Position numbers and translations under genes: made by a program
Assembly: GCF_901827155.1 (NCBI RefSeq)
Contig: NZ_LR594659.1
Coordinates: forward strand, 496,001 to 560,000
DNA: 64,000 bases
From: Variovorax sp. PBL-H6
GTDB lineage: Bacteria > Pseudomonadota > Gammaproteobacteria > Burkholderiales > Burkholderiaceae_C
Direction of reading: 5' to 3'
Shown here: positions 53 through 16,375 of the stretch, one piece after another
Layout of the letters: every line of letters begins with the position of its first letter
How positions within the stretch are numbered: position 1 is the stretch's first letter
Notes under the pieces: model-generated
The model's input: the letters and a program-made list of their open reading frames with translations, nothing else
What the model was told of the DNA's origin: nothing
Database searches by the model: none

Positions 53-841
53 ATGAGTAATGCAGCCAATGTGCGGGTCGAAGGCGTCTCCAAGACCTAT
101 GAAGTGCGTGCCGGCGACGATGTCAGGGCGCTCGACCGCGTCGACCTCGACATCGCCCCCGGCAGCTTCGTGGCCATCGTCGGGCCCAGCGGATGCGGCA
201 AGAGCACGCTGCTGTCGCTCCTGGCCGGATTGACCCCCGTGTCCTCGGGCCGCCTGCGCATCGATGGCGACGAAATCCTCAAGCCGCATCCGAAGGCCGG
301 TGTGGTTTTTCAGTCCGATCTGCTGTTGCCTTGGAGGAGCATCATCGACAACGTGTTGCTGCCGGTCGAGATCAAGGGGCGGAACCGGGCCGCCAGCATC
401 GGCCGCGCGCGCGAACTGCTCGCGCAGGTGGGCCTGCAGGGATTCGACAACAAGTTCCCGTTCGAACTCTCGGGCGGTATGCGCCAGCGCGTGGCAATCT
501 GCCGCGCCCTGATCCAGGAACCGGGGCTGCTGCTGATGGACGAGCCCTTCGGCGCGCTGGACGCCCTGACGCGCGAGCAGATGATCATGGATCTGCAGAC
601 CATGTGGCTGCGGTTGGGCAACACCGTGTTGTTCATCACGCACGGCATCGACGAGGCGGTGTTTCTCGCGGACCGGGTGATCGTCATGTCCCCACGCCCA
701 GGCCGCGTGGACCTCGACCTGGCCATCGACATTCCGCGACCGCGCCGCTGGAGCGGCATCCACGAGAACCCCGCCTTTCAGCACCACGTGCGACAGGTGC
801 GGGAGATGTTCGAAGCCAAGGGCGTCCTGGTCGCACACTGA
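53..841 (+). CDS. ABC transporter ATPase, nitrate/sulfonate/taurine class
   Basis: A 262-residue cytoplasmic ATPase that would power import of a small anion or heterocycle. Walker A is GPSGCGKST (residues 44-52), the signature is LSGGMRQRV, and Walker B LLLMDEPFGALD is followed by the H-loop FITHGIDEAV. The MDEPFGALD/THGIDEA pattern is typical of the SsuB/TauB/NrtD group. The start follows a strong GGAGGAGGG ribosome site. The periplasmic-binding and permease partners are not downstream, so they should lie just left of the window. The gene is 8 nt upstream of the next one and probably heads or continues the operon running to 6051. The substrate is not readable from the ATPase; the downstream hydantoinase-like enzymes suggest a cyclic amide or opine-like compound. 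Confidence 0.9.
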   Translation: MSNAANVRVEGVSKTYEVRAGDDVRALDRVDLDIAPGSFVAIVGPSGCGKSTLLSLLAGLTPVSSGRLRIDGDEILKPHPKAGVVFQSDLLLPWRSIIDNVLLPVEIKGRNRAASIGRARELLAQVGLQGFDNKFPFELSGGMRQRVAICRALIQEPGLLLMDEPFGALDALTREQMIMDLQTMWLRLGNTVLFITHGIDEAVFLADRVIVMSPRPGRVDLDLAIDIPRPRRWSGIHENPAFQHHVRQVREMFEAKGVLVAH

Positions 842-849
842 GGTACAGC

Positions 850-1938
850 ATGAAAGTTTCGATTCTGGGCGCCGGCGCCGGCGGTGCCGCGTCCGTGGCC
901 GAGCTCACGCAGGCCGGCCATGACGTGGTTCTGTGGAACCGCTCTCCTGAAACCCTCGCGCCGTTTCAAGCGCTCGAGGGCGTTCGCTACGACGGCGTGC
1001 TCGGCACGGGAATCGCTCGTCCGCGCCTGATCACCGCCGATCTGAGGGCTGCCATCGAAGGCGCCGACGCGGCGGTGGTCACGCTTCCGACCTTTTCTCA
1101 CGCGCCGGTTGCTCGCGCACTGGCTGCTGCCGGCTGGCCGGCGAACCGGCCGGTCGTCCTGAACCCCGGCCATACCGGCGGCGCGCTGGAGTTCGCCCAT
1201 GCCTGGCGCGAAGTGCGCCCCGACCTGCCGCCCATCGCCGAGTTCTCCACGCTGACCTACGTGGCCCGCAAATACCAGGCCGACGGCGTGACCGTCACCG
1301 GCCGTGCGCGCCAGGTCCGCGCCGCAGCGCTGCCGGGCGGCAATGCGGCACTGACCGCGGCCTGTGCGCTGTTCCCGGGCGCCACGCCCGTCGGCGACGT
1401 GCTCGCCTCCGCACTCGCCAATGCCAACCTGGTCCTGCATCCGCCCGGTGCGGTGCTGGCCGCCGCATGGGTCGAGGCGACGCATGGCGATTTCACCTTC
1501 TACGTCCAGGCCATGACGCCAGGTGTCGCTCGCACGATGCGTGCGCTCGACGACGAACGACTTGCCGTTGCCGCGGCCTTCGGCCATCACCTGCCGAACT
1601 TGATCGGCGAGATGCAGCTGATCGGCACGGTGGAGTCCTCGGTGAGCGACACCCAGGACTTCGTGGCCGCGATCGCGGGGGGCGAGGCGAACAAGCGCAT
1701 CAAGGGGCCCGACTCGCTCCAGCATCGCTATTACCGCGAGGACTTCGGGCACGGCCTGTTGCCATTCCTCGAGCTTGCGGCGGTTGCCGCCGTCGCCACG
1801 CCGGTGGCGCGATCGCTCTACACGCTCGCGCAGGCCTTCGTCGGCGTCGATTACGCGAAGGGCGGGCGCACCGCAGAGGCGATGGGAATTGCCGGGATGT
1901 CCAAGAACGAACTTCTACAACATGTGAGGCAGCCATGA
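850..1938 (+). CDS. NAD/NADP octopine (opine) dehydrogenase family protein
   Basis: A 362-residue NAD(P)-dependent oxidoreductase. It starts at ATG 850, where the Rossmann strand MKVSILGAGAGG begins; the open frame extends further left but that part overlaps the ATPase gene. The glycine motif GAGAGG lies near residues 7-12. The C-terminal half is helical, as in octopine/opine dehydrogenases, with a histidine in GHHLPNLIGEMQLIG. Family members reversibly oxidise N-(carboxyalkyl) amino acids to an amino acid plus a 2-oxo acid. The stop overlaps the next start by 4 nt, so it should be co-translated with the dipicolinate-synthase-like protein. The substrate is unknown. An oxidative catabolic role fits the operon better than opine synthesis, but this is inference. 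Confidence 0.8.
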   Translation: MKVSILGAGAGGAASVAELTQAGHDVVLWNRSPETLAPFQALEGVRYDGVLGTGIARPRLITADLRAAIEGADAAVVTLPTFSHAPVARALAAAGWPANRPVVLNPGHTGGALEFAHAWREVRPDLPPIAEFSTLTYVARKYQADGVTVTGRARQVRAAALPGGNAALTAACALFPGATPVGDVLASALANANLVLHPPGAVLAAAWVEATHGDFTFYVQAMTPGVARTMRALDDERLAVAAAFGHHLPNLIGEMQLIGTVESSVSDTQDFVAAIAGGEANKRIKGPDSLQHRYYREDFGHGLLPFLELAAVAAVATPVARSLYTLAQAFVGVDYAKGGRTAEAMGIAGMSKNELLQHVRQP

Positions 1939-2825
1939 ACTGGGACCAAGCCGTCATCGCGATCGTCGGCGGCGATCGACGCGAACAGGAGATTGCGCGC
2001 TGCGCAGTGGCCGCCGGGGCGCAAGTGCGTGCCTACGGCTTTCCCTGGCCCGACCCGGGCATCGAAGGGGTGCGGCATGCGGCCAGTGCCCGCGAAGCGC
2101 TGGAGGGTGCCGACATCGCGCTCTTTCCGATTCCCGGCATCGCACCCGATGGGGCGCTGTTCGCGCCCCAATGCGCAGAACGCATCATTCCGGACGCCGC
2201 CATGCTCGGCGGCATGCGCCGCCCGGGCCACATCATCCTCGGATGGGCCGACCCCAAGCTCAAGGCACATTGCGAGAAACTCGGCATCGGCTTGCACGAG
2301 TACGAATGGGACGAGGACCTCATGCTGCTGCGCGGGCCGGCGATCGTCGAGGGGATGCTCAAGGTGCTGATCGAGAACACCGACATCACCATCCACAAGG
2401 CCAAGGTGTGCCTGGTGGGGCAGGGGACCATCGGCTCCCTGGTCACGCACACCCTGCTGGGGCTCGGCGCACGTGTCCATGTGGCGGCGCGCAATGCCGT
2501 GCAGCGCGCGGCCGCGCATGCGGCCGGCGCCGAATCGCACGAGTTGAGCGCGCTCGCCGACGTGCTGCCCGGCACCGACATCGTCATTGCGAGCGTGCCG
2601 GCGCGCGTGCTCGGGCGCGACCTTTTGGAGAAGCTGCCTGCGCATGCCCTGCTGGTCGACCTGGCCGCGCCCCCCGGCGGCATCGATCGCGATGCCGCCC
2701 AGGAACTGGGCCTCAAGTTCGTCTGGGCGCGCGGCCTCGGCGCCAGGGCACCCATCACGGTCGGGCGAAGCCAATGGAGCGGCGTACACCGGCGAATCGA
2801 CAACATCCTGAAGGAAACGCAATGA
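1935..2825 (+). CDS. dipicolinate synthase subunit A-like dehydrogenase
   Basis: 296 residues resembling DpaA/SpoVFA of spore formers. It has an N-terminal domain starting AVIAIVGGDRREQEIAR, the linker VEGMLKVLIENTDITIH (the same position as the conserved TDITIH of Bacillus DpaA), and a C-terminal NAD(P)-binding Rossmann domain with VCLVGQGTIGS. The protein ends with the D-isomer-dehydrogenase-like LLVDLAAPPGG. Bacillus DpaA works with the flavoprotein DpaB to make dipicolinate; no DpaB gene is visible here and the host group does not sporulate. The start overlaps the previous stop (ATGA) and the stop overlaps the next start. The protein likely oxidises or reduces a cyclic imino-dicarboxylate-like compound, but the reaction is not determinable from sequence. 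Confidence 0.72.
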   Translation: MNWDQAVIAIVGGDRREQEIARCAVAAGAQVRAYGFPWPDPGIEGVRHAASAREALEGADIALFPIPGIAPDGALFAPQCAERIIPDAAMLGGMRRPGHIILGWADPKLKAHCEKLGIGLHEYEWDEDLMLLRGPAIVEGMLKVLIENTDITIHKAKVCLVGQGTIGSLVTHTLLGLGARVHVAARNAVQRAAAHAAGAESHELSALADVLPGTDIVIASVPARVLGRDLLEKLPAHALLVDLAAPPGGIDRDAAQELGLKFVWARGLGARAPITVGRSQWSGVHRRIDNILKETQ

Positions 2826-4171
2826 GCAACGCCGACCTGGTGATTCGCAACGCGCGCGTGGTGCGCCATGACGGGGAGTTTCACGGCGGCGTGGCCGTGG
2901 AGGACGGAAAGATCATCATGACGGGTGCCGACAGCGCCCTGCCCAAGGGCCATCGCGAGATCGATGCGGGCGGCCGGGTGCTGATGCCCGGCGTCATCGA
3001 TCCGCACTGCCATCTCGGCGTCAAGTATCCGTATGCGGAGGACATGCGCACGGAAATGGCTGCGGCAGCCTCGGGCGGCGTGACCACCGCGCTGCTGTAC
3101 ATCCGCAACCTGAAGCCCTCCTACCTGCCGTTCTACGAAGAGCGCAAGGCGGTCGGCGAAGAGAACTCCATCATCGACTTCGGGTTTCACTTCGGCATCC
3201 AGCGCGAAGAGCACATCGCGGAGATTCCCGAGATCGTCGCCAAGACGGGCGTGCGCTCCTTCAAATGCTACTTCGGGTATGAGCCGGACAATCCGATCGG
3301 CATCGTGCCCGCGACCGATGGCTGGGTGTACGCGGCGATGCGGATCCTCGCGAAAATTCCAGGTGGGCTGATCAATGTGCACTGCGAGAACACGCAGATC
3401 GCCTCCTGGCTGAAGAACGAGATCAAGGCGACGGGGCGGCAGGACCTGGGCGCCTACACCGAGTCTCGCCCGGCCTTCTGCGAGGTGGAGACGATTCGCC
3501 GCATGATCTTCCTCGCCGAGCGCACGGGCTGCTCGCTGCACCTGGTGCACACGTCGGTCGGCATGGGGCCCGTCCTCGCCGCCGAGGCGCAGGCGCGCGG
3601 CGTGCACGTGACGGTCGAAACGTGCCAGCACTACCTCACGCGCACGGCCTACGACAGCGACCTCGACATGCGCGCAAAGATCTCGCCGCCGTTGCGCGAC
3701 AAGGAAGAGCAGGACGGCCTGTGGCGTGGAGTCCTGAACGGCTCCGTCTACAGCCTGGGCACCGACCACGTTCCCTTCCTGCCGAAGAAACTGGAAGACC
3801 TCTGGAGCGAACTGCCCGGCGTGGTGTCCTTCCCGTGGGAGCTTTCGCTGATGCTGCACTTCGGCGTTCACCAACGTGGGCTGCCTCTGTCGCGGCTGGT
3901 GCAGCTCAATTCGGCCAATCCTGCGCGCCGCTTCGGGCTGTGGCCGCGCAAGGGCAACATCGAGGTCGGTTTCGATGCCGACATGGTGCTGGTCGACCTC
4001 GACGAAGAGCGTACGGTCCGCCACACGGGCAAGGGCACCTGCATCTACGAAGGCTGGAAGCTCAAGGGATGGCCAGTGCTCACCGTGTCCCGGGGCGCGG
4101 TGCTTTACGAGAACGGCGCCGTCGACGAGAGCCAGTTCGGGCGAGGACGCTGTCTCTCGGTTCCCGCCTGA
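2822..4171 (+). CDS. dihydroorotase/hydantoinase-type cyclic amidohydrolase
   Basis: 449 residues, the usual length for dihydropyrimidinase/hydantoinase enzymes. The metal site looks complete: PGVIDPHCH near residues 57-65 (HxH), the carboxylated-lysine position in RSFKCYFGYEP, histidines in INVHCENTQ and LHLVHTS, and the aspartate in SLGTDHVPFLPKK. The C-terminal beta-sandwich contains NIEVGFDADMVLVDLD. The enzyme should open a cyclic amide (hydantoin, dihydropyrimidine or dihydroorotate type) in the cytoplasm. The start overlaps the preceding stop by 4 nt. The operon also encodes an isochorismatase-fold hydrolase, the fold of N-carbamoylsarcosine amidase and biuret hydrolases, which could process a carbamoyl product. 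The exact substrate is open. Pyrimidine synthesis is unlikely in this neighbourhood. Confidence 0.85.
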   Translation: MSNADLVIRNARVVRHDGEFHGGVAVEDGKIIMTGADSALPKGHREIDAGGRVLMPGVIDPHCHLGVKYPYAEDMRTEMAAAASGGVTTALLYIRNLKPSYLPFYEERKAVGEENSIIDFGFHFGIQREEHIAEIPEIVAKTGVRSFKCYFGYEPDNPIGIVPATDGWVYAAMRILAKIPGGLINVHCENTQIASWLKNEIKATGRQDLGAYTESRPAFCEVETIRRMIFLAERTGCSLHLVHTSVGMGPVLAAEAQARGVHVTVETCQHYLTRTAYDSDLDMRAKISPPLRDKEEQDGLWRGVLNGSVYSLGTDHVPFLPKKLEDLWSELPGVVSFPWELSLMLHFGVHQRGLPLSRLVQLNSANPARRFGLWPRKGNIEVGFDADMVLVDLDEERTVRHTGKGTCIYEGWKLKGWPVLTVSRGAVLYENGAVDESQFGRGRCLSVPA

Positions 4172-4185
4172 GGACGCGTACACGC

Positions 4186-4866
4186 ATGGAAACCGGGCTC
4201 GACACCCCGATCAGGGGCAGCGCTGCGCCCGCTGCGCACAGCCTCGACGAGCGCATCGACGCGCTGGCCGCCGCAGCGCGCGAACTCGCGCAGCGCAGCC
4301 CTCGCCCGCGGCAGGAATATCTGTCCGGCATCCACAACCCATGGGGCTATGGGACCCCGCAGGTCGATGCCTGGCTGCTGCTCGATCTGTGCCAGGACCC
4401 CTGCATCCTCGGCGGCGTGGAGCAGCTCGTCGGCCATGACATCGTCCTGTGGGATACCGAGCTGTATCTCGAAGCCGGCGCATACGAGCGCTTCGTGAGA
4501 GAAGGGCGGGAGGGGCGCTACTGGCCTGCGATGCCGCTGGAGGGCGCAGTCGTGCTGGTGCCGGCAGGGCCGGCGCCGAAGTCCGTGAGCTTCATGGACC
4601 TTGCGCGGATCGCACGGAAGGATTTGCCGGCGCTGGACCCGATGTCGCCGCTTTATGTCCTGCGCTACATGCCGGCGACGAGCCGCTTCGTGCGCGACGG
4701 CCGCTCGCTCGCGAACTGGGTGGCCATGGAGGAGCAGCCCCTTGTCAACTACGCGACCCGTCCTCTCTGGCTGATGCGTGGAGAGGATCGAGCCGGCAGT
4801 GATTTCGTGACAGGCTTTTCGCCGCCGGTGCCCCGCTGGGCCGGCACTCAACTCAAGGAGAAATGA
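4186..4866 (+). CDS. unrecognised operon protein, weakly phytanoyl-dioxygenase-like
   Basis: 226 residues with no signal peptide or membrane segment. I do not recognise the family with confidence. The stretch VEQLVGHDIVLWDTELYLE resembles the entry strand of phytanoyl-CoA dioxygenase-like proteins, but I cannot find the HxD...H iron motif of that family, so it may be a non-catalytic relative or something else. It is rich in aromatics and prolines towards the C-terminus (FSPPVPRWAGTQL). It lies 14 nt after the amidohydrolase and 1 nt before the tautomerase (TGACATG), so it is clearly part of the operon. ATG 4186 is preceded by a distant GAGGA. Confidence 0.6.
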   Translation: METGLDTPIRGSAAPAAHSLDERIDALAAAARELAQRSPRPRQEYLSGIHNPWGYGTPQVDAWLLLDLCQDPCILGGVEQLVGHDIVLWDTELYLEAGAYERFVREGREGRYWPAMPLEGAVVLVPAGPAPKSVSFMDLARIARKDLPALDPMSPLYVLRYMPATSRFVRDGRSLANWVAMEEQPLVNYATRPLWLMRGEDRAGSDFVTGFSPPVPRWAGTQLKEK

Positions 4867-4867
4867 C

Positions 4868-5062
4868 ATGCCATTCGTGATCGTCGAAATGTGGCAAGGC
4901 CGCACCGTCGAGCAGAAGCGCAACCTGGTCAAGGCCATCACGCAGGCCATGGTCGACCATGCCGGCTGCAAGCCTGACCACCTGCACGTGGTGATCCACG
5001 ACACGCCCAAGGACAGCTGGGGACGCGATGGCGTGCTCGGCATCGACATGAAGGAAAAATGA
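4868..5062 (+). CDS. 4-oxalocrotonate tautomerase family protein
   Basis: 64 residues, the standard length of a 4-OT subunit. It begins MPFVIVEMWQGRT, so processing would expose the catalytic N-terminal Pro1. The helix EQKRNLVKAITQAMVDHAG and the strand HLHVVIHDTPKDSWG are typical. Family members are hexamers that interconvert enol and keto forms of 2-oxo acids. Translation is tightly coupled: an AAGGAG ribosome site lies inside the end of the previous gene, and the stop overlaps the next start by 4 nt. In this operon it probably acts on a 2-hydroxydienoate or enamine product. The specific substrate cannot be inferred. Confidence 0.88.
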   Translation: MPFVIVEMWQGRTVEQKRNLVKAITQAMVDHAGCKPDHLHVVIHDTPKDSWGRDGVLGIDMKEK

Positions 5063-6051
5063 TGACTCTCGACAATCTCGACCCGCGCACCTCCGCCTTG
5101 TTGGTCATCGATCTTCAGAACGCCTTCATTCATGACAAGGGCACGCTCGGCATCTCGGGGGTCGACACCCAGCGGCTCTCGGCCATCGTGCCGACGCTTG
5201 CCGAGTTGATCCCGCGTTGCCAGGCGGCCGGCATTCCGGTGATCTGGACCGTGCAGGAACATTTCGCCGTCGATGCGAGTCGGGCCCGCAAGAAGCTCGC
5301 CGGCCACACCTCGCGGCGCAAGCAGGTTTCCGCGCTGGCGGGAAGCTGGGACGAGGAGATCGTCGAGGAGCTCAAGCCGCTCGCGGCGGTCAATCCGGCC
5401 TATGTGATCCGCAAGCACCGCTTCGGCGCCTTCTACGAGACGCGGCTCGAGATGATGCTGAAGATGCTCGGCACCCGGACCTTGTTCGTGGCCGGGACCA
5501 CCACCAACGCCTGCGTGGAGACCAGCATCCGCGAAGCCTATCTGCGCGACTATGACGTGGTGGCGCTCGACGATTGCATCTCCGGCGTCAATGGCGAATG
5601 GGAACAGACCGCCAAGAAGGTCTGGAAGCAGTACTTCTGCGAAGTCTCCGATTCGCAGGAGATGCGCGCGTGGATCGATGCGCAGTCGGCGCCGCGCACG
5701 CTCGGCTTCGGCCACATGCTGCTGATGGTGCAGGACGTGCCGCGCTCGGTCGGTTTCTATGTCGACCAGCTCGGCTTTTCGATCCGGCCAGCGAAGCCGC
5801 TCGCGGACGGGCGGCCGTTCACCGCCTTCCATCAAGGGATGGCCGTCGTGGGCGGTCGCGCACCATCGCATCGTCAGATCGACCACATCGCATTCGAGGT
5901 CAACGACGTGCGGGCGTTGCGCGACAAGCTGAAGCAATCCGACGTCGAGTTCCAGCAGGACCTGCATGACGGGCCCTATGGCCTGACGATCTACGTGACC
6001 GATCCGGACGGCACGCGCGTCGAGCTGTACCAGGTGGGCGCGACCGCCTGA
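5059..6051 (+). CDS. isochorismatase-family hydrolase fused to a VOC (glyoxalase) domain
   Basis: A 330-residue two-domain protein. Residues 1-205 are a cysteine hydrolase of the isochorismatase/nicotinamidase fold with the catalytic triad Asp18 (LLVIDLQNAF), Lys119 (VIRKHRFGAFYET) and Cys152 (GTTTNACVET). Residues about 215-328 form a vicinal-oxygen-chelate domain starting LGFGHMLLMVQDV. It retains His219, His276 (DHIAFEV) and Glu322 (RVELYQVG) as likely metal ligands. Most family hydrolases are 180-230 residues with no VOC domain, so the fusion is notable. Related enzymes hydrolyse N-carbamoyl or amide bonds (N-carbamoylsarcosine, biuret, ureidoacrylate). AAGGAA precedes the ATGATG start, and the first ATG overlaps the tautomerase stop. 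It is the last gene of the operon. Confidence 0.88.
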   Translation: MMTLDNLDPRTSALLVIDLQNAFIHDKGTLGISGVDTQRLSAIVPTLAELIPRCQAAGIPVIWTVQEHFAVDASRARKKLAGHTSRRKQVSALAGSWDEEIVEELKPLAAVNPAYVIRKHRFGAFYETRLEMMLKMLGTRTLFVAGTTTNACVETSIREAYLRDYDVVALDDCISGVNGEWEQTAKKVWKQYFCEVSDSQEMRAWIDAQSAPRTLGFGHMLLMVQDVPRSVGFYVDQLGFSIRPAKPLADGRPFTAFHQGMAVVGGRAPSHRQIDHIAFEVNDVRALRDKLKQSDVEFQQDLHDGPYGLTIYVTDPDGTRVELYQVGATA

Positions 6052-6122: not shown

Positions 6123-6153
6123 CATGTCTGACCAACCAGAGAGAGAGATCCCC

Positions 6154-7269
<1,116 letters not shown>

Positions 7270-7288: not shown

Positions 7289-7617
7289 ATGGACCCCGTC
7301 TCCCACACCGTCATCAACCTGATCATCTTCGTGCTCGCCATCTACGTGGGCTACCACGTCGTCTGGACCGTCACCCCCGCGCTGCACACCCCCCTGATGG
7401 CCGTGACCAACGCCATCTCCGCCATCGTCATCGTCGGCGCCATGCTCGCAGCCGCCCTCACCACCAGCTGGCTGGGCAAGGGCATGGGCGTGCTGGCCGT
7501 GGCGCTCGCCGCGGTCAACGTCTTCGGCGGCTTCCTCGTCACCCGGCGCATGCTCGAGATGTTCAGGAAGAAGGACAAGAAGGCCGCCCCCGCAGCCGCC
7601 AAGGCGGGGGCCACTGA
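7289..7617 (+). CDS. pntAB: NAD(P) transhydrogenase alpha subunit part 2, apparent C-terminal frameshift
   Basis: A small membrane subunit of about 108 residues with three or four helices ([52 protein letters not shown]). It ends in a basic tail, [19 protein letters not shown]. In the annotated frame there is no stop before pntB. The expected TGA (7615-7617), 2 nt before the pntB ATG, is in the -1 frame, so the frame as read would run about 500 codons across pntB. Runs of five C (7587-7591) and five G (7606-7610) are likely sites of a one-base sequencing or assembly loss, a genuine mutation, or less likely a programmed -1 shift. The end given assumes that TGA is used. Confidence 0.8.
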
Positions 7618-7619
7618 CC

Positions 7620-9107
7620 ATGTCGATGAACATCGTCACCCTGCTGTACCTGGTCGCCAGCGTCTGCTTCATCCAGGCCCTCAAGGGCCTGAGCCATCCC
7701 ACCACCTCCATCCGCGGCAACCTCTTCGGCATGGCGGGCATGACCATCGCCATCCTCACCACCGCCGCGCTGATCGTGCAGCTCGCCGGCGGCAAGGGCC
7801 AGGGCATGGCCTGGGTGCTGCTGGGCCTGGTCGTGGGCGGCGGCTACGGCGCCTGGCGCGCCAAGACCGTCGAGATGACCCAGATGCCCGAGCTGGTGGC
7901 CTTCTTCCACAGCATGATCGGCCTGGCGGCCGTCTTCATCGCGGTGGCCGCCGTGGTCGAGCCCTGGGCCTTCGGCATCACGCCGCCTCCGGTCGCCGCG
8001 GTCCTCGGCGCCAACACCCCCGAAGGCGCGTACCTGGTCGACGGCTTCGCGCGCTTCGCCATTCCCGCGGGCAACCGCCTCGAGCTCTTCCTGGGTGCCG
8101 CCATCGGCGCCATCACCTTCAGCGGCTCCGTCATCGCCTTCGGCAAGCTCTCGGGCAAGTACAAGTTCCGCCTGTTCCAGGGCGCACCGGTGCAGTTCAA
8201 GGGCCAGCACATGCTCAACCTGGTGCTCGGGCTGCTGACCATCGGGCTCGGGCTGGTCTACATGGCCACCGAGAGCTGGAGCGCCTTCTTCCTGATGCTG
8301 CTGCTGGCCTTCGTGATGGGCGTGCTGATCATCATCCCGATCGGCGGGGCGGACATGCCGGTGGTGGTCTCGATGCTCAACAGCTACTCGGGCTGGGCGG
8401 CCGCGGGCATCGGCTTCAGCTTGAACAACGCGATGCTCATCGTGGCCGGCTCGTTGGTGGGCAGCTCCGGCGCGATCCTGAGCTACATCATGTGCAAGGC
8501 GATGAACCGCTCGTTCTTCAACGTGATCCTGGGCGGCTTCGGCGGCGAGGCGACGGCTGCCACCGGCGCAGCCAAGGAGCAGCGCCCGGTCAAGAGCGGC
8601 AGTGCGGACGATGCGGCCTACATGCTCTCCAACGCCGAGACGGTGATCATCGTGCCGGGCTACGGCCTGGCGGTGGCGCGTGCGCAGCACGCGGTCAACG
8701 AGCTGGCGCAAAAGCTCACCGAGAAGGGCGTGACGGTGAAGTACGCGATCCACCCGGTGGCCGGGCGCATGCCGGGGCACATGAACGTGCTGCTGGCCGA
8801 GGCCGAGGTGCCCTACGACCAGGTGTTCGAGATGGAGGACATCAACGGCGAGTTCGCGCAGGCCGACGTGGCGATCATCCTGGGGGCCAACGACGTGGTG
8901 AACCCTGCTGCGCTCACCAAGGGCACGCCGATCTACGGCATGCCGATCCTGGAGGCGTACAAGGCCAAGACGGTGATCGTGAACAAGCGCTCGATGGCCG
9001 CGGGTTATGCCGGGCTGGACAACGAGCTGTTCTACATGGACAAGACCATGATGGTCTTCGGCGACGCCAAGAAGGTGGTCGAGGACATGGGCAAGGCGAT
9101 CGAGTAA
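7620..9107 (+). CDS. pntB: NAD(P) transhydrogenase beta subunit
   Basis: 495 residues. The N-terminal two thirds are multi-helix membrane domain II, which conducts protons (for example [19 protein letters not shown] and [20 protein letters not shown]). The C-terminal part is the NADP-binding dIII with [48 protein letters not shown] and the [16 protein letters not shown] loop. The enzyme makes NADPH from NADH using the proton gradient. It starts 2 nt after the presumed pntAB stop. A strong intrinsic terminator follows the gene. The protein is slightly longer than the Escherichia coli beta subunit. Confidence 0.95.
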
Positions 9108-9143
9108 CGCGAGGCGGCCCCCTGCTCGCAACAGGACGTGCGG

Positions 9144-9167
9144 GCGGGGCGTGGCCCCGCTCTTTTT
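9144..9167 (+). terminator. intrinsic terminator after pntB
   Basis: A perfect 7-bp stem GCGGGGC/GCCCCGC (9144-9150 with 9154-9160) has a GTG loop and is followed by TCTTTTT. It lies 37 nt past the pntB stop and 2 nt before the end of the convergent dadA gene, so it separates the two transcription units. Confidence 0.88.
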
Positions 9168-9168
9168 C

Positions 9169-10473
9169 CTAGGCCTGCGCCAACTGGATTGCCGGTCGCC
9201 TCGACAAGCCCCCGGTGAACGCGAAGTCCACCTCGGGCGCAAGCCCGCTCACGATGCGCGCGATCGACTTGCCCGAGCCGCATGAATGCGTCCAGCCGAG
9301 CGTGCCATGGCCCGTATTGAGGAAGAGGTTGGGCATCTTCGTCGCGCCGATCAAGGGGACATTGCTGGGTGTCGCTGGCCGAAGACCTGTCCAGAATTGC
9401 GCCTGCGTGCTGTCTCCGGCGCCGGGGAACAGTTCTTCGACGCGCCGCACGATCGCCTCGCAGCGAACGCGGTTCAGGTCGCGGTCGTAGCCGTTGAGTT
9501 CGGCCGTGCCCGCGACGCGCAGCCGGTCGCCGGCGGCCGACGTGTAGCGAGAAAACACGAGCTTGAATTCATCGTCCGTCAACGACACCTGGTAAGCCTT
9601 GGACGCATCCTTGACCGGCAGGGTGACCGAATAGCCTTTCGCCGGATAGATCGGCAGCCGGATGCCCAGCGGTGCCGCGTAGAGCGGGCTGAGCGAACCC
9701 ATGGCGAGCACGAAGGCATCGCCGCGGATGCGTTGGAAGCGACCTTCGTGGTCGGTCGCTTCGACGTGATCGACCTGACCGCCAGCCTCGCGAATCGCGG
9801 TGATCGTGTGGCTCATCAGGAACTTGACGCCCGCTGCTGCGCAGATGTTGACCAGTTCGCGCGCGAAGCGATTGGCGTCGCCCGACTCGTCTTCGGCCGT
9901 GTAGGTGGCGCCGGCCAGCTGCGGTCGGATGTGCGCCAGGGCGGGCTCGATCTTCACCGCCTCCTCGGCCGAAATTACCTCGCGCTCACAGCCCAGTGCG
10001 CGCATTTGCTGCGCCGGCTTCAACGCACCGTCGAACTCCTTCTGCGTGGTGTAGAAGTGCAGGATGCCCTGCGTGCGTTGCTCGTAGGCAAGACCGGTGT
10101 CGGCGCGCAATTGCTGCAGCGTCTCGCGGCTGTAGGTCCCCAGGCGCACGATCTGCTCGATGTTGTGGCGCGTGCGCGCGGGCGAGCATTCCCGCAGGAA
10201 TTGCAGGCCCCAGAGCCATTGACGCATATCCGCGCGAATGCGAAACAGCAGCGGCGCATCTTCCTTGCCGAGCCATTGCAGTACCTTGATGGGCGCACTC
10301 GGGTTAGCCCAGGGTTCGGCGTGGCTCACCGAGATCTGCCCGCCATTGGCGAAGCTGGTTTCGGCGGCCGGCGTGGCCTGGCGGTCGATGACCGTCACTT
10401 CGTGGCCGAGTTGCTGAAGGTAGTAAGCCGAGGTGACGCCGAGCAGGCCGGCGCCGAGAACGATCACGCGCAT
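9169..10473 (-). CDS. dadA: D-amino acid dehydrogenase (DadA-type FAD oxidoreductase)
   Basis: 434 residues. It begins with the FAD-binding motif [19 protein letters not shown] (GxGxxG), followed by the acidic end of the second strand (VTVIDR). Further DadA features are [19 protein letters not shown] and the C-terminal [16 protein letters not shown]. The family oxidatively deaminates D-amino acids, and some members also glycine, to 2-oxo acids, feeding electrons to the respiratory chain. Start ATG 10473 is chosen because the Rossmann strand begins there, with AAAGGG upstream. A tandem glycine riboswitch and terminator-like platform lie in the leader, implying glycine-dependent expression. A glycine- or glycine-betaine-derived role is therefore worth considering alongside D-alanine. 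Confidence 0.88.
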
Positions 10474-10527
10474 ATCAAACCCTTTGAAGGTTGCAGCGCT
10501 CGAACGCACGGAAACGGAAGCTCTTTG

Positions 10528-10836: not shown

Positions 10837-12525
10837 TCACAGGTGCCGCGGCGACGGATCATGCGAGACGCAGCGCCCGGCACTGTGTCTCGGCCGTTTC
10901 TGCAACAGCGCGCTCGTGACGCCGTTCGTCCACCCGAACCCGTCCTGCAACGGATACTCCCCGCCGCCGCCGCCCGCGGATCGCTCTTCCTTTACCGAGC
11001 GCAGCGCATACTTTTCGACCAGCTTGCCCTCGCGTTCGTACACCGCCGCGACGGTGGCGAGCCAACGGCTCGCGATCGTGCTCGAGAGCGACCGGCATCC
11101 GTAGGCGGCGAATCCCCAAATCCCCATCCACTGCAGCGGCGCCCAACCATTGGGCCGGTCCCATTGCTGGTCACTCCAGTACTCCGTGGTCGACAGTCCG
11201 CCCGGGGCGAGCATCCTTGCCGACACGGTCCCGGCCAGCGCTCGTGCCTGCGCCGGATCGGCGAGTCCCACGAAAAGAGGGACGACGGATGCGGCCGTCA
11301 GGCAGTTCCGCCGCGCGTCGCTGCGCCAGTCGTAGTCGAAGAAGGCTGCTTGCCCGGAGTCCCAGCAAAGTTCGATGACCGCGGTCCGACGTTCACGGGC
11401 GCGATCCGCAAACTCGCGGGCGCTCGCCGCATCGCCGGTACGCTTCGCAAGTTCCGCGATCTTCGCCTCCAGCTTGTAGAGGAACGCGTTGAGGTCGACC
11501 GGCAGTATGTCCGTGGTGCAGATGCTCGTCAGCGAGGGTGCCGTGGCGGCGCGCGCGTGCAACGGCACCGGGCCGCGGCCACGTGGCGGCGCTTCGCGCA
11601 ACCAGCGCGTGCTGAAGTCCCAGCCCGATTCGCACGCAGCTCGCAGATGGCGGTAGACCTCGGCGGGCTCGCGCCGGCATGCCCTCACCGTTGCCACATC
11701 CTCGAGCCACGACTCCTCGCGGGGCGTGTCCCGGTCGTCCCAGTAGCGATTGAGCAGCTTGCCGTCGCGCAGGCGCACGACGCGGCGCCCCGCCTGGCCG
11801 GGTGCGAGCCCCTCGCATCCTGCCATCCAGTAGGCATGCTCCTGGCGCAGCTGCGGCAGGAACTTCGTCTCTTCCGCGGCACCGTACCGCTGCGCGAGCT
11901 CGACCATCAGCGCAAACACCGGCGGCTGCGAGCGGCTCAGGTAGTACGTTCGCGTCCCATTCGGAATGTGCCCGTAGGTGTCGACCAGGTAGGCGAAGTT
12001 GTGGACCATGTCGCCCACCATCTGCGAGTGACCAGCGCCGGCGAGTCCCAGCATCGTGAAGTACGAGTCCCAGTAGTAGAGCTCGCCGAAGCGCCCGCCC
12101 GGCACCACGTAGGGATGCGGCAGCTGCAGCAGCGAGGCATGCGGCGGATGCACGCGGGGATGCCGAGTCAGGACTTTCCAGAGGCTCCCGATGTGCTCGC
12201 CGATGGGTTGACCCGGAACCGAGACGTACTCGCCGGTTGGAGGATGCGTGGGCCTGAAGTTCGCGTGCACGAATTCCGCGAGGTCGAAACCCGGCTCTCG
12301 GAATCTGGCGCGGTAGGCCGCGAGGATGGCTGCCGGTTCGCCGCGCGGGGCGCAGTCCACGAAGGTCTTGCTGTCGGAGAAGATGCTCGACTGCTGGACC
12401 GCGGTGAACAGCTCCTGGTAGCGATCTGCCGGCGTGAGCGTGTCGGGCGCGGGCGCCTGCGCTGCCTTTCTCGAACGCTGCGCGTCACCTTGTGTGCCGA
12501 GCACCTCGTAGTCACTGCTCGGCAT
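10837..12525 (-). CDS. trehalase, GH37 family
   Basis: 562 residues; hydrolyses trehalose to two glucoses. Both trehalase signatures are present: PGGRFGELYYWDSYF and QWDRPNGWAPLQW. The likely catalytic acid is Asp303 in ESGWDFSTRW. There is no signal peptide from ATG 12525, which suggests a cytoplasmic TreF-like enzyme; a longer frame exists upstream but overlaps the SDR gene. The N-terminal 40 residues are polar and low-complexity. The start lies inside the last 14 nt of the SDR gene, so the two are translationally coupled. A glycine-rich insert (SAGGGGGEYPLQ) occurs near the C-terminal active-site loop. The product glucose could be oxidised by the coupled SDR. Confidence 0.92.
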   Translation of the reverse strand: MPSSDYEVLGTQGDAQRSRKAAQAPAPDTLTPADRYQELFTAVQQSSIFSDSKTFVDCAPRGEPAAILAAYRARFREPGFDLAEFVHANFRPTHPPTGEYVSVPGQPIGEHIGSLWKVLTRHPRVHPPHASLLQLPHPYVVPGGRFGELYYWDSYFTMLGLAGAGHSQMVGDMVHNFAYLVDTYGHIPNGTRTYYLSRSQPPVFALMVELAQRYGAAEETKFLPQLRQEHAYWMAGCEGLAPGQAGRRVVRLRDGKLLNRYWDDRDTPREESWLEDVATVRACRREPAEVYRHLRAACESGWDFSTRWLREAPPRGRGPVPLHARAATAPSLTSICTTDILPVDLNAFLYKLEAKIAELAKRTGDAASAREFADRARERRTAVIELCWDSGQAAFFDYDWRSDARRNCLTAASVVPLFVGLADPAQARALAGTVSARMLAPGGLSTTEYWSDQQWDRPNGWAPLQWMGIWGFAAYGCRSLSSTIASRWLATVAAVYEREGKLVEKYALRSVKEERSAGGGGGEYPLQDGFGWTNGVTSALLQKRPRHSAGRCVSHDPSPRHL

Positions 12526-13279
12526 AGTTCCAGAGCAAGCCGCCATCCACCACGCTCGTCGTGCCCGTGATGTAGTCGGCGTCCGCAGAGGCCAGGAAGG
12601 CGGCCATGCCCGCGACATCGCCGGGCCGGCCCAGGCGCTTCAGAGGAATGTTCGCGAGCAAGGCATCGCGCATGGCGGGGTCGTTCAGCACGCGCGCATT
12701 GATGGGTGTCTCGATGGCACCCGGCGCGATGTTGTTGACGGTGATTCCGAAAGGCGCGAGTTCGATCGCCAGATTGCGCGTCATCATCCTCATGCCGCCC
12801 TTGCTGATGCAATAGGCAGCGAAGTGAGGGAAGGGCAGGTCCTCGTGGACAGAGCTGATGTTGATGATCCTGCCGCCGCGGCCGGCCTGCTTGCACCGGG
12901 CCGCAAAGGCCTGGGCAAGGAAGAACGCCCCCTTCAGGTTCACGTTCATCACCTCGTCGTAGTCGGCTTCGGCCACGTCGAGAAAGTCCGCTCGCCTCTC
13001 GATGCCTGCGTTGTTGACCAGGATGTCGATCGCCCCGAGCTGATCGGCCACTCTCACGAACGCTGCCTGCAACGGCTCGATCTGCGACACGTCGCACGGC
13101 ATCACGACGCATCGGCGACCCAGGCCTTCGATCTGAACGCGCAGGGCTTCCGAGCGTTCATCAGCCTGGCGGACATTGAGGGCAACGTCGGCGCCCGACT
13201 CTGCAAGACGCAGTGCGATGGCCTTGCCGATCCCCTGCGAGGCGCCGGTGACCAAGGCAGTCTTGTCGTGCAGATCCAT
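12512..13279 (-). CDS. SDR oxidoreductase, glucose 1-dehydrogenase-like
   Basis: 255 residues with the classical SDR pattern: TGASQGIG (residues 11-18), DILVNNAG, NISSVHE and the catalytic Tyr156xxxLys160 (YCISK), with PGAIETP after it. The family includes bacterial glucose 1-dehydrogenases and 3-oxoacyl reductases; the call rests on overall similarity and on coupling to trehalase. Together the pair could turn trehalose into gluconolactone with NAD(P)H production, as in osmolyte recycling. A GGAGG ribosome site precedes ATG 13279. Confidence 0.75.
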   Translation of the reverse strand: MDLHDKTALVTGASQGIGKAIALRLAESGADVALNVRQADERSEALRVQIEGLGRRCVVMPCDVSQIEPLQAAFVRVADQLGAIDILVNNAGIERRADFLDVAEADYDEVMNVNLKGAFFLAQAFAARCKQAGRGGRIINISSVHEDLPFPHFAAYCISKGGMRMMTRNLAIELAPFGITVNNIAPGAIETPINARVLNDPAMRDALLANIPLKRLGRPGDVAGMAAFLASADADYITGTTSVVDGGLLWNYAEQ

Positions 13280-13635
13280 CGAACAGGCCTCCAGAACTTA
13301 CGGGCACGCGGTAAAGACGATTCCACATGGTGATCGAGCACCGTAGACCTTCGCGACGGCGGGTGCATGTAGGAGCGGGCCGCGCAAGCATCACCGCGGG
13401 AACGCACTTGCGCCGTGCCGGGTTTTGCGGAACCCTTTTGCTGCAACTTAGGGAATGGCCACTGCCCGGAAGGTGACCCCTCGTGCGATCGCAGTTCGGG
13501 CACCCGGCTTGCTCTGACCGGTGAAAGAAGCTTCTTCGTGCTTCGGGGAGATGCCTGCCGGCACTCCCGTAGGAGCGAGGATCCCCATGATCTGCGCGCA
13601 GGCGCAGCAACGCCGCACAGCCTGGAGGCTAGACG
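13280..13635. other. divergent intergenic region, 356 nt
   Basis: This gap separates the minus-strand SDR-trehalase unit from the plus-strand methyltransferase and must hold both promoters. Near its right end is GGAGG, the methyltransferase ribosome site. I see no convincing ORF, RNA gene or strong palindrome in it. Confidence 0.5.
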
Positions 13636-14328
13636 ATGAAGGAAAGCAGAGCACGATCGGAAGACTTCGGCCCGCCCAGTCTCTCCGTCGAATCGAAGCC
13701 CGAGAGGGCCCTATCGGAGGCAGGGGTCGCCCGGGCCTACAAGCGTCTCGCGCCGGTCTATGACCTGCTTTTCGGGCAAGTGCTCGAACCCGGTCGAAGG
13801 CGGATGGCGGAGATCGTGCGCAAGCTGCAGCCCGCGTCGCTTCTCGAGGTCGGCGTCGGGACCGGGCTCGCCTTGGCCCACTATCCGCACACTTCGAGAA
13901 TCGTGGGCATCGACCTGTCCCGCGAAATGCTCGAGCGGGCGCGCGAACGTGCGCGTGCCCTGCCGGACCACCAGATCACCGTCGAGTACATGAACGCGGA
14001 GCGCACAAGCTTCGCGGACGGATCGTTCGACTGCGTCACCCTGCCTTACGTACTCTCCGTCACGCCGCGGCCAGCCGAACTGGTGCGCGAGATCCGCCGC
14101 ATATGCAAGCCGGATGGGACGATCGTCGTGCTCAACCACTTCAGTGGAAGCAGGTTCTGGTGGCTCATGGAGCGGGCCTTTCGCTCTGCGGCCGAGCACG
14201 TCGGCTTTCGATCCGACTTCCGGTACGAGGAGCAGATCCTCTCGCACGATTGGCAAGTGGCCAGCATCGAGTCCGTCAATCTGCTCGGCCTCTCCAAGCT
14301 CATCGTGCTGAAGAACCGCCGGGCCTGA
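13636..14328 (+). CDS. SAM-dependent methyltransferase, phosphatidylethanolamine N-methyltransferase (PmtA)-like
   Basis: 230 residues of class I methyltransferase fold. The SAM site is LLEVGVGTGLALAHYP, the acidic ribose contact follows in GIDLSREMLERAR, and motif II is SFDCVTLPYVLSVTP. The entry helix AYKRLAPVYDLLFGQVLEPGR is typical of rhizobial and Rhodobacter PmtA, which methylates phosphatidylethanolamine towards phosphatidylcholine at the membrane. A GGAGG ribosome site sits 8 nt before the ATG. It stands alone on the plus strand. Ubiquinone or menaquinone methyltransferases of the UbiE group are the main alternative. Confidence 0.75.
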   Translation: MKESRARSEDFGPPSLSVESKPERALSEAGVARAYKRLAPVYDLLFGQVLEPGRRRMAEIVRKLQPASLLEVGVGTGLALAHYPHTSRIVGIDLSREMLERARERARALPDHQITVEYMNAERTSFADGSFDCVTLPYVLSVTPRPAELVREIRRICKPDGTIVVLNHFSGSRFWWLMERAFRSAAEHVGFRSDFRYEEQILSHDWQVASIESVNLLGLSKLIVLKNRRA

Positions 14329-14400
14329 ATGGGGGCTCCCTTCTTCGCACACCGACCGCCCTGCGGTACCCAGCATGCTGACTCCTTCGACGACGATGCG

Positions 14401-14535
14401 CTACCGGGAGCCCGGGGCCGAATGCGCGGCCAGTTCGCCCCAGTGGCCGGCGAGCCTTCGGCAGAACTCGTGTCCATAGGTCGCGGAGCCGACCGCGTTC
14501 AGCGCCAGGATGGCCCAGCCACGCGCGCACAGCAC
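14401..14535 (-). pseudogene. possible small or decayed ORF, 44 codons
   Basis: From a GTG at 14535 the minus strand reads a coherent peptide, VLCARGWAILALNAVGSATY followed by a polar helix, ending at TAG. The same frame is open further back to a TGA just upstream but has no ATG. It could be a remnant of a small membrane protein or chance coding in GC-rich DNA. It lies directly downstream of the TPP enzyme on the same strand. Confidence 0.2.
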
Positions 14536-14584
14536 CTGCCAGAAGACATCGGCCCCGCGGCGCTTCCATCAAGGCTGGAACTCG

Positions 14585-16375
14585 TCACTCCTTCTTTTCC
14601 GGAAGGATGTGACTGAGCACCTGCCGCGCCGTGTTCGCGATCATCGAGGCGCCTTCTGCATCGCCCTTGACCAGCGACGTGACGAAGTTGCGCGCCTGCT
14701 TCAGGTTGATGTGCGGCGGGAGCGGCGGCACCTCCGGGTCGGTCTTGAATTCGAGCAGCACGGGCCGGGTCGCTGAAAGCGCCCTGTCCCATGCGGGGCC
14801 GACGGCCTCTGGCTCGTCGACGTAGATGCCTTCCAGGCCGATGAGTTCTGCGAACTTGTGATACGGCACATTCGGCAGCGTCTGGCTGGCCTCGAACTTC
14901 GGATCGCCTTCCATGATGCGCTGCTCCCAGGTGACCTGGTTCAGGTCCTCGTTGTTGAGGACCATGACGATCCAGCGCGGATCGCTCCATTGACGCCAGT
15001 ATTTCGCCACCGTGATCAGCTCGGCCATGTTGTTCATCTGCATGGCACCGTCCCCGACCATCGCGATCACCGGGCGATCGGGATGCGCGAACTTCGCGGC
15101 AATCGCGTAGGGCACGGCGGCCCCCATCGAAGCGAGCCCGCCCGACAGCGAGCACATCATTCCGCGCCGCACCTGGATGTCGCGCGCATACCAGTTGGCG
15201 CAGGAGCCGGAGTCGGAGGTCAGGATGGCGCGGTCGGGCAGCCGCCGCGACAACTCCACGAACGGCAGCTGCGGATTGACGGGCGTGGCCGCCGCCATCG
15301 CACGTTCGTGAAGCGTCTTCGCCCACGCGTCCTTCCAGCCGGCGATGTCTTCGCGCCATCCGGTGTCGGTCTTCTGATCGAGCAGCGGGAGCAATGCCTG
15401 CAGCGTGGCCTTGACGTCGCCCTCGAGGTTGACTTCCATCGGATAGCGAAGCGACAGCATGCCGGGGTCGAGGTCGACCTGGACCCCGCGCGCCTGGCCC
15501 TCCTTAGGCAGGAACTCCGCATAGGGAAAGCCGGAGCCCAGCATCAGGAACGTGTCGCAGCCGGCGATGAGTTCGTCGCTGGGCTTGGTGCCCAGGAGCC
15601 CGATGGAACCGGTGACCCACGGCAGGTCGTCGGGCAGCGCCTGCTTGCCCAGCAGCGCCTTGGCGGCGCCGGCGCCGAGCTTGTCGGCGACGGCGATGAT
15701 CTCGTCGGTCGCCGCATTGCCGCCCGCGCCCACGAGCAGGGCCACTTTCCTGCCGGCGTTGAGCGCCTCCGCCGCCCGCGACAGCTCAGCCTCGGCGGGC
15801 AGCACGCGCGGCGCGGACCAGCCGACACCGGAGAAGACCGAGCCGTGTGCACGAGGCGGCTGCTCCATCGGCATGTCCTGCAGGTCGTTCGGGATGATGA
15901 GCGCGGTGACGCACCGGCGCCCGAGCGCAATGCGGGCGGCCCGGTCGATCAGGTGGCGAACCTGGGCGGGCACGCTCGCGGTGGCGACGAAGTCGGCGGC
16001 CACGTCCTTGAACATCGCGTTCAGGTCGAGTTCCTGTTGATAGTGCGAGCCGATCGCCGTTCTCGCCTGCTGCCCGACGATCGCCAGCACCGGCACGTGG
16101 TCCATGCGCGCGTCGTAGAGGCCGGTGATCAGGTGCGAAGCGCCGGGGCCGGAGGTGGCCAGGCACACGCCCAGTTCGCCTGTGAACTTGGCATGCGCCG
16201 AGGCCATGAACGCGGCCATCTCCTCGTGCCTGGCCTGCACGAACTCGAACTTGTCGCCGGCGCGCGCGAGCCCACCCAACAGTCCGTTGATGCCATCGCC
16301 CGGATAGCCGAAGATCCGGCGAATGCCCCATTGGTGCAGGCGCTGCCAGAAGAAATCGGAGACTTTTTCAGCCAT
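14585..16375 (-). CDS. thiamine-pyrophosphate enzyme, pyruvate oxidase/acetolactate synthase-like
   Basis: 596 residues in the three-domain TPP layout: PYR domain with the activating glutamate in RHEEMAAFMA, a central domain, and a PP domain with the TPP motif GDGAMQMN closed by VLNNEDLNQ. Family members decarboxylate pyruvate or related 2-oxo acids (pyruvate oxidase, acetolactate synthase, oxalyl-CoA decarboxylase). The GYPGDGINGLLGGLARAG opening is common in stress-associated pyruvate oxidase-like proteins. No small regulatory subunit gene follows, arguing against anabolic acetolactate synthase. An in-frame GTG at 16393 is an alternative start; neither has a clear ribosome site. Confidence 0.8.
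   Translation of the reverse strand: MAEKVSDFFWQRLHQWGIRRIFGYPGDGINGLLGGLARAGDKFEFVQARHEEMAAFMASAHAKFTGELGVCLATSGPGASHLITGLYDARMDHVPVLAIVGQQARTAIGSHYQQELDLNAMFKDVAADFVATASVPAQVRHLIDRAARIALGRRCVTALIIPNDLQDMPMEQPPRAHGSVFSGVGWSAPRVLPAEAELSRAAEALNAGRKVALLVGAGGNAATDEIIAVADKLGAGAAKALLGKQALPDDLPWVTGSIGLLGTKPSDELIAGCDTFLMLGSGFPYAEFLPKEGQARGVQVDLDPGMLSLRYPMEVNLEGDVKATLQALLPLLDQKTDTGWREDIAGWKDAWAKTLHERAMAAATPVNPQLPFVELSRRLPDRAILTSDSGSCANWYARDIQVRRGMMCSLSGGLASMGAAVPYAIAAKFAHPDRPVIAMVGDGAMQMNNMAELITVAKYWRQWSDPRWIVMVLNNEDLNQVTWEQRIMEGDPKFEASQTLPNVPYHKFAELIGLEGIYVDEPEAVGPAWDRALSATRPVLLEFKTDPEVPPLPPHINLKQARNFVTSLVKGDAEGASMIANTARQVLSHILPEKKE

Follow-up and report, generated by a model that had tools for sequence, protein, structure and literature searches.

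A conserved accessory operon of Variovorax and Hyphomicrobiales joining hydantoinase-, DpaA- and opine-dehydrogenase-family genes with an iron-less oxygenase-fold protein

Several described systems share parts with a gene cluster of Variovorax sp. PBL-H6 analysed here, which occupies positions 53-6051 of a 64,000-nucleotide stretch (the window; G000:C1:496001-560000) of its 6.87 Mb genome. The Rut pyrimidine pathway has in common with this locus a RutB-like isochorismatase-fold hydrolase and a RidA/RutC-type protein, but the locus adds a hydantoinase-type enzyme and two dehydrogenases, its RutB-like protein (IsoVOC) lies below the RutB equivalog cut-off (TIGR03614, 96.5 bits against 377.95), and no RutA-type monooxygenase is named in the cluster of the plasmid records that we opened, where no model search for RutA was made. 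Hydantoin-utilisation (hyu) clusters also combine a hydantoinase with an N-carbamoyl hydrolase, as in Aminobacter DSM24754, where a dihydropyrimidinase is paired with an N-carbamoyl-D-amino-acid amidohydrolase (PMC3546935); in our locus, by contrast, the hydantoinase-like protein (Hyd) does not reach the D-hydantoinase cut-off, and removal of a carbamoyl group would fall to an enzyme of the isochorismatase type. The sporulation dipicolinate synthase DpaA is a member of the same family as a third protein of the locus and similar to it over nearly the full length, whereas the locus protein stays below both DpaA cut-offs and is found in Proteobacteria, in a catabolic context. N-carboxyethyl-norvaline and octopine dehydrogenases share with the other dehydrogenase, OpDH, the Octopine_DH helical domain and, for 1bg6, nearly full-length similarity, but the Asn-Arg that follows the second strand in OpDH points to NADP(H). 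Picolinate and nicotinate pathways resemble a reduced type of the locus, which has a molybdenum (Mo) hydroxylase, an Amidohydro_2 protein and hydrolases near its core; DpaA, enolase-superfamily and M24 proteins are not known to take part in those pathways.

What is new in the locus is how known families are combined; its history seems modular, and one of its products is a partner protein with an oxygenase fold but no iron site. An earlier sequence-only reading of this DNA knew of no named pathway with such a set, and we likewise found none in titles and abstracts of the open-licence PubMed Central (PMC) literature, subscription papers not being covered; the list of functions published for plasmid pUSP1 does not name this gene cluster (PMC8460812). 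We read the locus, with a probability of roughly 0.6, as an operon for breaking down a cyclic nitrogen compound, part of which is a cyclic ureide or amidine. Its conservation implies a widespread nitrogen compound for whose breakdown no genes are described in the literature searched.

Operon structure and enzyme families

The seven open reading frames (ORFs) at 53-6051 run in the same direction and are all intact, each with an ATG start and a single terminal stop, and rechecking gave distances between them of 8, -4, -4, 14, 1 and -4 nt, exactly as the sequence-only reading had listed:

53-841, + strand: ABC transporter ATPase of the SsuB/TauB/NrtD type (Pfam ABC_tran, 112 bits)
850-1938, + strand: OpDH, octopine/nopaline-dehydrogenase-family oxidoreductase (PF02317 Octopine_DH, 122 bits)
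1935-2825, + strand: DpaA-like NAD(P)-dependent oxidoreductase (PF16924 DpaA_N, 79 bits)
2822-4171, + strand: Hyd, hydantoinase/dihydropyrimidinase-like cyclic amidohydrolase (Pfam Amidohydro_1; nearest solved structure L-hydantoinase 1gkr)
4186-4866, + strand: g5, phytanoyl-CoA-dioxygenase-fold protein without the iron triad (226 aa)
4868-5062, + strand: Taut, 4-oxalocrotonate-tautomerase-family protein (PF01361, 69 bits)
5059-6051, + strand: IsoVOC, isochorismatase-fold hydrolase (residues about 1-205) fused to a single VOC domain (about 206-330) (PF00857, 137 bits; PF00903, 59 bits)

A single import-plus-catabolism operon, the transcription unit that had been proposed, is supported, and Pfam and NCBIfam assigned all of the seven genes to families except g5. 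The ATPase scores under the cut-off of the NCBIfam models among the matches listed (25 of 189), the best being of the taurine type (230 against 357). OpDH exceeds the PF02317 gathering score (122 against 30 bits) and has CENDH as its nearest solved structure (1bg6, E 3e-45), and the DpaA-like protein matches the dipicolinate synthase A chains 3d4o (E 4e-29) and 2rir (E 5e-25) but stays under the DpaA/DpsA equivalog cut-offs (TIGR02853, 184 against 320; NF006162, 198 against 261). An Arg follows the second Rossmann strand in both dehydrogenases (WNRS and AARN; OpDH reads NR), which suggests that they use NADP(H) rather than NAD, in line with the transhydrogenase genes pntAB described below. Of the NAD-dependent oxidation proposed earlier, the dehydrogenase families are retained, whereas the cofactor is probably a different one.

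Hyd is closest to the L-hydantoinase 1gkr (E 9e-62) and, among the matches listed (25 of 67), lies below the cut-offs for allantoinase (NF004839, 287 against 631), AllB (TIGR03178, 275 against 358) and D-hydantoinase (TIGR02033, 268 against 393). Its metal-site and carbamylated-Lys motifs (PHCHLG, SFKCYFGY, VHCEN, LVHTS and GTDHVP) are conserved in an alignment of 26 rows in which the window protein stands twice. The nearest solved structure to IsoVOC is RutB (8bkd, E 6e-21), and across loci the Asp-Lys-Cys residues of the isochorismatase domain and the His-His-Glu residues of the VOC domain are conserved, as is the Pro after Met (the N-terminal Pro) in 31 aligned rows of the tautomerase, a protein which scores 57 against 55 for the 2-hydroxymuconate tautomerase model NF002571, 66 against 80 for NF001966 and 53.6 against 56.9 for TIGR00013. 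Because these residues are conserved, Hyd, the isochorismatase domain, the VOC domain and the tautomerase are probably active.

Conservation, distribution and two locus types

In Burkholderiales and Hyphomicrobiales, 27 loci were annotated, and 26 of them carry OpDH-DpaA-Hyd-g5-Taut-IsoVOC as an uninterrupted block; in the exception, L044, OpDH is displaced by about 5.7 kb. Eighteen of these loci came from a search of named genomes with an alignment of g5 and belong to Variovorax JS1663, seven Aminobacter, Mesorhizobium, Afifella and metagenome-assembled genomes labelled Pseudolabrys, Rhizobiales, Burkholderiales or Proteobacteria. The other nine are the window's own, three Variovorax regions and five plasmid regions found through DpaA. 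A view of plasmid records anchored on DpaA is independent of the presence of g5: DpaA matched 18 records, with at least 60% identity in 14, and the order OpDH-DpaA-Hyd-g5-Taut-Iso is kept in all 12 of these 14 that were opened (H5 and H7 were left out), the remaining four matches being low-identity DpaA of Bacillota. The gene order is conserved far beyond chance. A scattering of the genes without linkage, which the sequence-only reading had set against its own proposal, is rejected by the 27 loci and the opened plasmid records.

The locus is an accessory trait. With a threshold of E 1e-30 or better, and the window's own genome counted each time, a DpaA homologue was present in 7 of 100 Variovorax genomes, in 11 of 399 genomes of the order sample and in a single one of 369 genomes of the class sample, namely the window's own. 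Among the seven positive Variovorax genomes, full regions were read for four (G000, G482, G501 and G051), the loci of two (G490 and G057) are shorter but agree in gene order over their length, and the seventh (G023) has a variant locus. Some loci of the analysis probably come from one genome counted twice (G490 and L030 of JS1663; G057 and L031). The block is repeatedly plasmid-borne, once between duplicated transposition genes, and its hosts (Variovorax, Aminobacter, Mesorhizobium, Phyllobacterium and Shinella) are bacteria of rhizosphere and soil. The case with duplicated genes is Aminobacter aminovorans plasmid pAA03, typed as conjugative, where a block copy with a shortened AH1 amidohydrolase gene and no transporter stands between two copies of TniQ/TniB/Mu-type transposition genes with identical protein accessions (L048 8137-11492 and 26444-29799); this strain has another block copy on pAA01.

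A second locus type, found in other Burkholderiales of the order sample, keeps DpaA, the tautomerase and a stand-alone VOC protein. Seven regions, from the ten genomes besides the window's own, make up this reduced set: the three genes are adjacent in that order in six of six (L067-L072, of which L072 spans just 5.3 kb), and the contig of L073 stops after DpaA. In G023 (L063), DpaA is accompanied by convergent VOC and tautomerase genes. Searches with a split query found the isochorismatase domain fused to VOC in 27/27 full loci and absent from 7/7 reduced loci within the stretch covered. Enolase-superfamily and M24 genes are present in four of the seven reduced loci, a GntR gene in five, and a Mo-hydroxylase large subunit stands near the core in five (36-38% identity). 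Mo-hydroxylase large-subunit genes also follow the operon in three of the 27 full loci, where L037 has a three-subunit enzyme after IsoVOC (Pfam) and homologues of its large subunit occur in L034 (98% identity) and L047 (38%); such genes beside both locus types are as expected for N-heteroaromatic substrates.

On the DpaA tree, three changes are required to explain the reduced type, which none of 200 bootstrap trees unites in a single clade, whereas well-supported branches force one change only. The simplest reading starts from a core of DpaA, tautomerase and VOC that gained a front end for ureide hydrolysis, or lost it more than once. This core occurs without the hydantoinase and isochorismatase part and so is separable. 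For the same reason, the linear order of import, ring opening, decarbamoylation, oxidation and tautomerisation in the sequence-only reading is not borne out. The two locus types offer a natural experiment, in which the substrate of the reduced type would show the role of the core and the full type what the hydrolytic front end adds.

This distribution bears on an alternative in which the locus would degrade opine-like secondary amines, such as N-carboxyalkyl amino acids or glycation products, with OpDH freeing a 2-oxo acid and the hydrolases acting on lactam or hydantoin derivatives. The OpDH family itself would suit such a role, as would the malate synthase G genes neighbouring 13 of 27 loci and, next to the G023 core, another protein that resembles a dehydrogenase (by eye, no Pfam match). 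However, no OpDH was found in the stretches covered of the seven reduced loci, and the deaminase, Mo-hydroxylase and VOC would not be needed, so that we regard this alternative as unlikely. As a separate observation on G023, L063 2700-5055 holds a PLP-fold enzyme (PF00291) that reads, by eye, like a diaminopropionate ammonia-lyase, together with the dehydrogenase-like protein; both stand beside another NMT1-type transporter near the core.

An oxygenase-fold protein without the iron triad

Gene g5 matched no family in Pfam or NCBIfam at E 0.01 and is annotated in public records as 'resolvase' or 'hypothetical'. It has the Fe(II)/2-oxoglutarate oxygenase (PhyH) fold, assigned from VIA-align and the sequence, and its sequence resembles that of paralogues of the PhyH family from Variovorax and other Burkholderiales; its closest named relatives are from Variovorax. 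While fold and sequence relate it to the phytanoyl-CoA dioxygenase family (PhyH, EctD, SyrB2), g5 has lost the His-x-Asp...His iron triad of these enzymes. No His occurs at either ligand column in any of 121 sequences, the Asp column is Glu in 121/121 next to an invariant Tyr-Trp, and the Arg column after the second His holds Arg in just one. The paralogues used for comparison were chosen by the motif W-[HA]-x-[DE]-G-x-Y-W-P, so that their 17/17 His is partly by construction (18 paralogue loci were tried, and L017, which lacked such a stretch, was dropped). The stretch from YWP to RY measures about 45 residues in g5 against 97 in the paralogues, and the part that held the distal iron ligand is thus shortened.

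Most likely, g5 descends from a 2-oxoglutarate oxygenase and now serves as a partner protein without catalysis of its own. The uniform Glu in place of Asp, with the adjoining Tyr-Trp, would also fit an oxygenase-type pocket turned to a new metal-free or Glu-ligated reaction, but the missing His ligands and the shortened distal region argue against a protein that remains catalytic, which we hold to be the less likely reading. The chemistry proposed in the sequence-only reading had left this conserved protein out. In g5, an oxygenase fold has clearly lost its iron site and is nevertheless kept in an operon.

The wider locus and a proposed pathway

The seven genes, previously taken as a whole unit, are only the visible part of a larger conserved locus of about fifteen to twenty genes. 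The window start falls inside the operon, and binding-protein and permease genes lie directly upstream on the same strand, so that the operon has at least nine genes. Region L009, whose positions from 8001 onward correspond to the window from position 1 onward, covers this upstream side, and three further genes follow in the window:

L009 6144-7145, same strand as the operon, upstream of the window: substrate-binding protein of the NMT1/THI5 family (start verified)
L009 7165-7989, same strand as the operon, upstream of the window: ABC permease
Window 6124-7269, + strand: PntA, NAD(P) transhydrogenase alpha (AlaDh_PNT_N and _C; 72 nt after IsoVOC)
Window 7620-9107, + strand: PntB, NAD(P) transhydrogenase beta (PNTB, 623 bits)
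Window 9169-10509, - strand: FAD-dependent oxidoreductase reading as DadA, D-amino-acid dehydrogenase (DAO, 227 bits; narrower name by eye)

The binding-protein and permease genes are 19 nt apart, and 63 nt separate the permease from the ATPase. Genes for GntR (FCD type), RidA and CobW form a unit divergent from the transporter genes upstream of the window. Farther upstream, co-directional with the operon, are those for AH2 (a cytosine-deaminase-like amidohydrolase of 399 aa), AH1 (an amidohydrolase of the 5'-deoxyadenosine/8-oxoguanine-deaminase and AtzA family, of AtzA/guanine-deaminase type, under NCBIfam cut-off among the matches listed, 25 of 38 models), an M24 protein and a member of the enolase superfamily that is closest to muconate lactonizing enzymes. 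AH1, M24, the enolase-superfamily protein, RidA, CobW and GntR also belong to the wider conserved locus, a PntA gene neighbours the cluster in 15 of the 27, and the DadA-like gene recurs at the same place in Variovorax G051 (L066).

Alignment with prolidases shows that, of the five ligands of the dinuclear metal site, three are changed in the M24 protein (among the rows that reach these columns, D to E in 14/14, D to G in 14/14 and E to K in 16/16, the last from 15 distinct proteins). We take these losses to resemble those in creatinase and ectoine hydrolase, metal-free enzymes that split C-N bonds of guanidines or cyclic amidines. Run without its first 36 residues, the protein remains below the cut-offs of the ectoine hydrolase DoeA (NF038259, 73 against 575; TIGR02993, 68 against 613). 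Membership in the canonical hydantoinase, allantoinase, RutB, DpaA and DoeA families was rejected, all scores being below cut-off.

Partner genes differ between loci. Malate synthase G and a GlcG/HbpS-like protein are encoded upstream of OpDH in 13 of 27 loci (Aminobacter, Mesorhizobium, Phyllobacterium), 10 of which also have DadA, the contigs of the other three beginning inside malate synthase; no malate synthase was present at that place in two opened Shinella records. In these 13 loci and in Shinella L049 the CobW-side genes come after IsoVOC, with a cytosine deaminase on the opposite strand between the two in 13 of the 14 (not L033) and a transporter after CobW in 13 of the 14 (in L048, none in the stretch covered). 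L046 has gcvT, gcvH and gcvP downstream (Pfam). On the Phyllobacterium zundukense plasmid of L050, the DadA and malate synthase matches at 11474-14742 are each split in two and no such gene is annotated, and both may be broken in that strain.

The import transporter, the divergent FCD-type GntR, the gene families and their linkage count for a catabolic operon. OpDH and DpaA could instead build an opine- or dipicolinate-like chelator, their families being biosynthetic in metallophore and spore systems, but an import-type ABC transporter with its binding protein, a GntR-FCD regulator, several hydrolases and malate synthase speak against this, and no chelator synthase or exporter is named in the conserved cluster of the opened plasmid records (no model search was made for one). 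We consider biosynthesis very improbable.

For the catabolic operon, we infer the following reactions and their order from the families present. The substrate would be imported by the NMT1/THI5-type ABC transporter, AH1 would strip an exocyclic amine, Hyd would hydrolyse the cyclic amide and the isochorismatase domain of IsoVOC would remove the carbamoyl group, a front end that fits a cyclic amidine or ureide; hydantoinase-type ring opening followed by isochorismatase-fold hydrolysis, as proposed earlier, is supported by the gene families as a plausible pair of consecutive steps. The remaining skeleton would pass to a core of DpaA, the tautomerase, the VOC domain, the enolase-superfamily protein and the metal-ligand-poor, creatinase-like M24 protein. 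Since the known DpaA substrate is a cyclic imine dicarboxylate, this core fits six-membered N-ring chemistry. OpDH would cleave or form an opine-type C-N bond, probably linked to NADP(H), RidA would clear imines, CobW may deliver metal to the amidohydrolases and PntAB would balance NADPH and NADH. Products would reach glyoxylate and malate via DadA and, in Hyphomicrobiales, malate synthase G; a release of two-carbon units would agree with OpDH, DadA and malate synthase, and in one locus with the glycine cleavage genes as well.

Many of these genes would also serve a simple creatinine/hydantoin route, consisting of deamination of a creatinine-like compound to a hydantoin, opening by Hyd, decarbamoylation by the isochorismatase domain and oxidation of the amino acid to glyoxylate by DadA: the deaminase-family, hydantoinase-like, isochorismatase-fold, creatinase-related M24 and DadA-like genes, and malate synthase where it occurs. 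However, such a route would leave OpDH, DpaA, the tautomerase, VOC, the enolase-superfamily protein and g5 without a role, and all of these but the enolase-superfamily protein occur in 27/27 loci, which makes it an improbable explanation in our view.

Some results weigh against the catabolic reading with a ureide or amidine part. No gene meets an NCBIfam cut-off that fixes a substrate, and among the matches listed only the tautomerase passes one at all (NF002571). The binding protein, in which the sequence-only reading had hoped for ligand hints, matched just 4nmy and 3qsl in the PDB, both weakly (E about 1e-4), and was uninformative in this respect. By score, the nearest solved relatives of the M24 protein are prolidases (102 bits) and not creatinases (73 and 70). 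Malate synthase was not seen in 14 of 27 loci, including the Variovorax and Shinella loci read, nor PntA in 12, some of whose contigs end there, and the presence of g5 in 18 of the 27 is by construction, as those loci were found through it. Furthermore, the core is found in other settings, with a FAA hydrolase and an acyl-CoA-dehydrogenase-like protein in L068 and with the PLP-fold enzyme in L063, so the intermediate common to core loci may not be a ureide product.

A more specific and speculative idea, to which we give little credence, is that the compound taken apart by the full locus is a 2-amino-4-oxo-pyrimidine with another N-ring fused to it, for example a pterin. AH1 would deaminate it, Hyd would open the resulting dioxopyrimidine, and decarbamoylation by IsoVOC would leave an aminopyrazine- (or other heteroaromatic) carboxylate, whose ring would be opened by the DpaA-tautomerase-VOC core that stands beside Mo-hydroxylases in other bacteria, after which OpDH would cleave an opine-like N-C-C-N fragment to glyoxylate or glycine. 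If true, the locus would encode the whole degradation of the pteridine ring, and a pseudo-oxygenase would be indispensable to the pathway; no evidence in our analysis ties the locus to pterins. In Variovorax F1, known enzymes convert folate to deaminopteroate, whose later fate the report on that strain leaves open (PMC9513972), and the likeness to that system lies in the genus and in a 399-aa amidohydrolase related to cytosine deaminases. AH2 as the F1 pterin deaminase is not supported, since the length agrees but the primer-coded N-terminus of the F1 enzyme (MKLEAVR) differs from MRILRSV in AH2 (PMC9513972). Among the matches listed for the Variovorax genus sample, AH2 is 29-36% identical to paralogues.

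Scans of the DNA for consensus promoters and terminators were uninformative (one promoter-like site with 1.4 expected; three terminator-like sites with 5.2 expected). An ORF at window 7289-9172 starts like a small transhydrogenase subunit, has no in-frame stop before 9172 and overlaps the whole of PntB in another frame, possibly reflecting an indel or an odd overlap. After DadA, trehalase-like and SDR-like ORFs (names by eye) follow on the - strand at window 10837-12618 and 12512-13279. Just upstream of the locus lies a second NMT1-type transporter cluster (L051 2809-11980; G000:C1 about 476800-486000), which has amidohydrolase, CobW-like and LysR-like genes of its own (names partly by eye).

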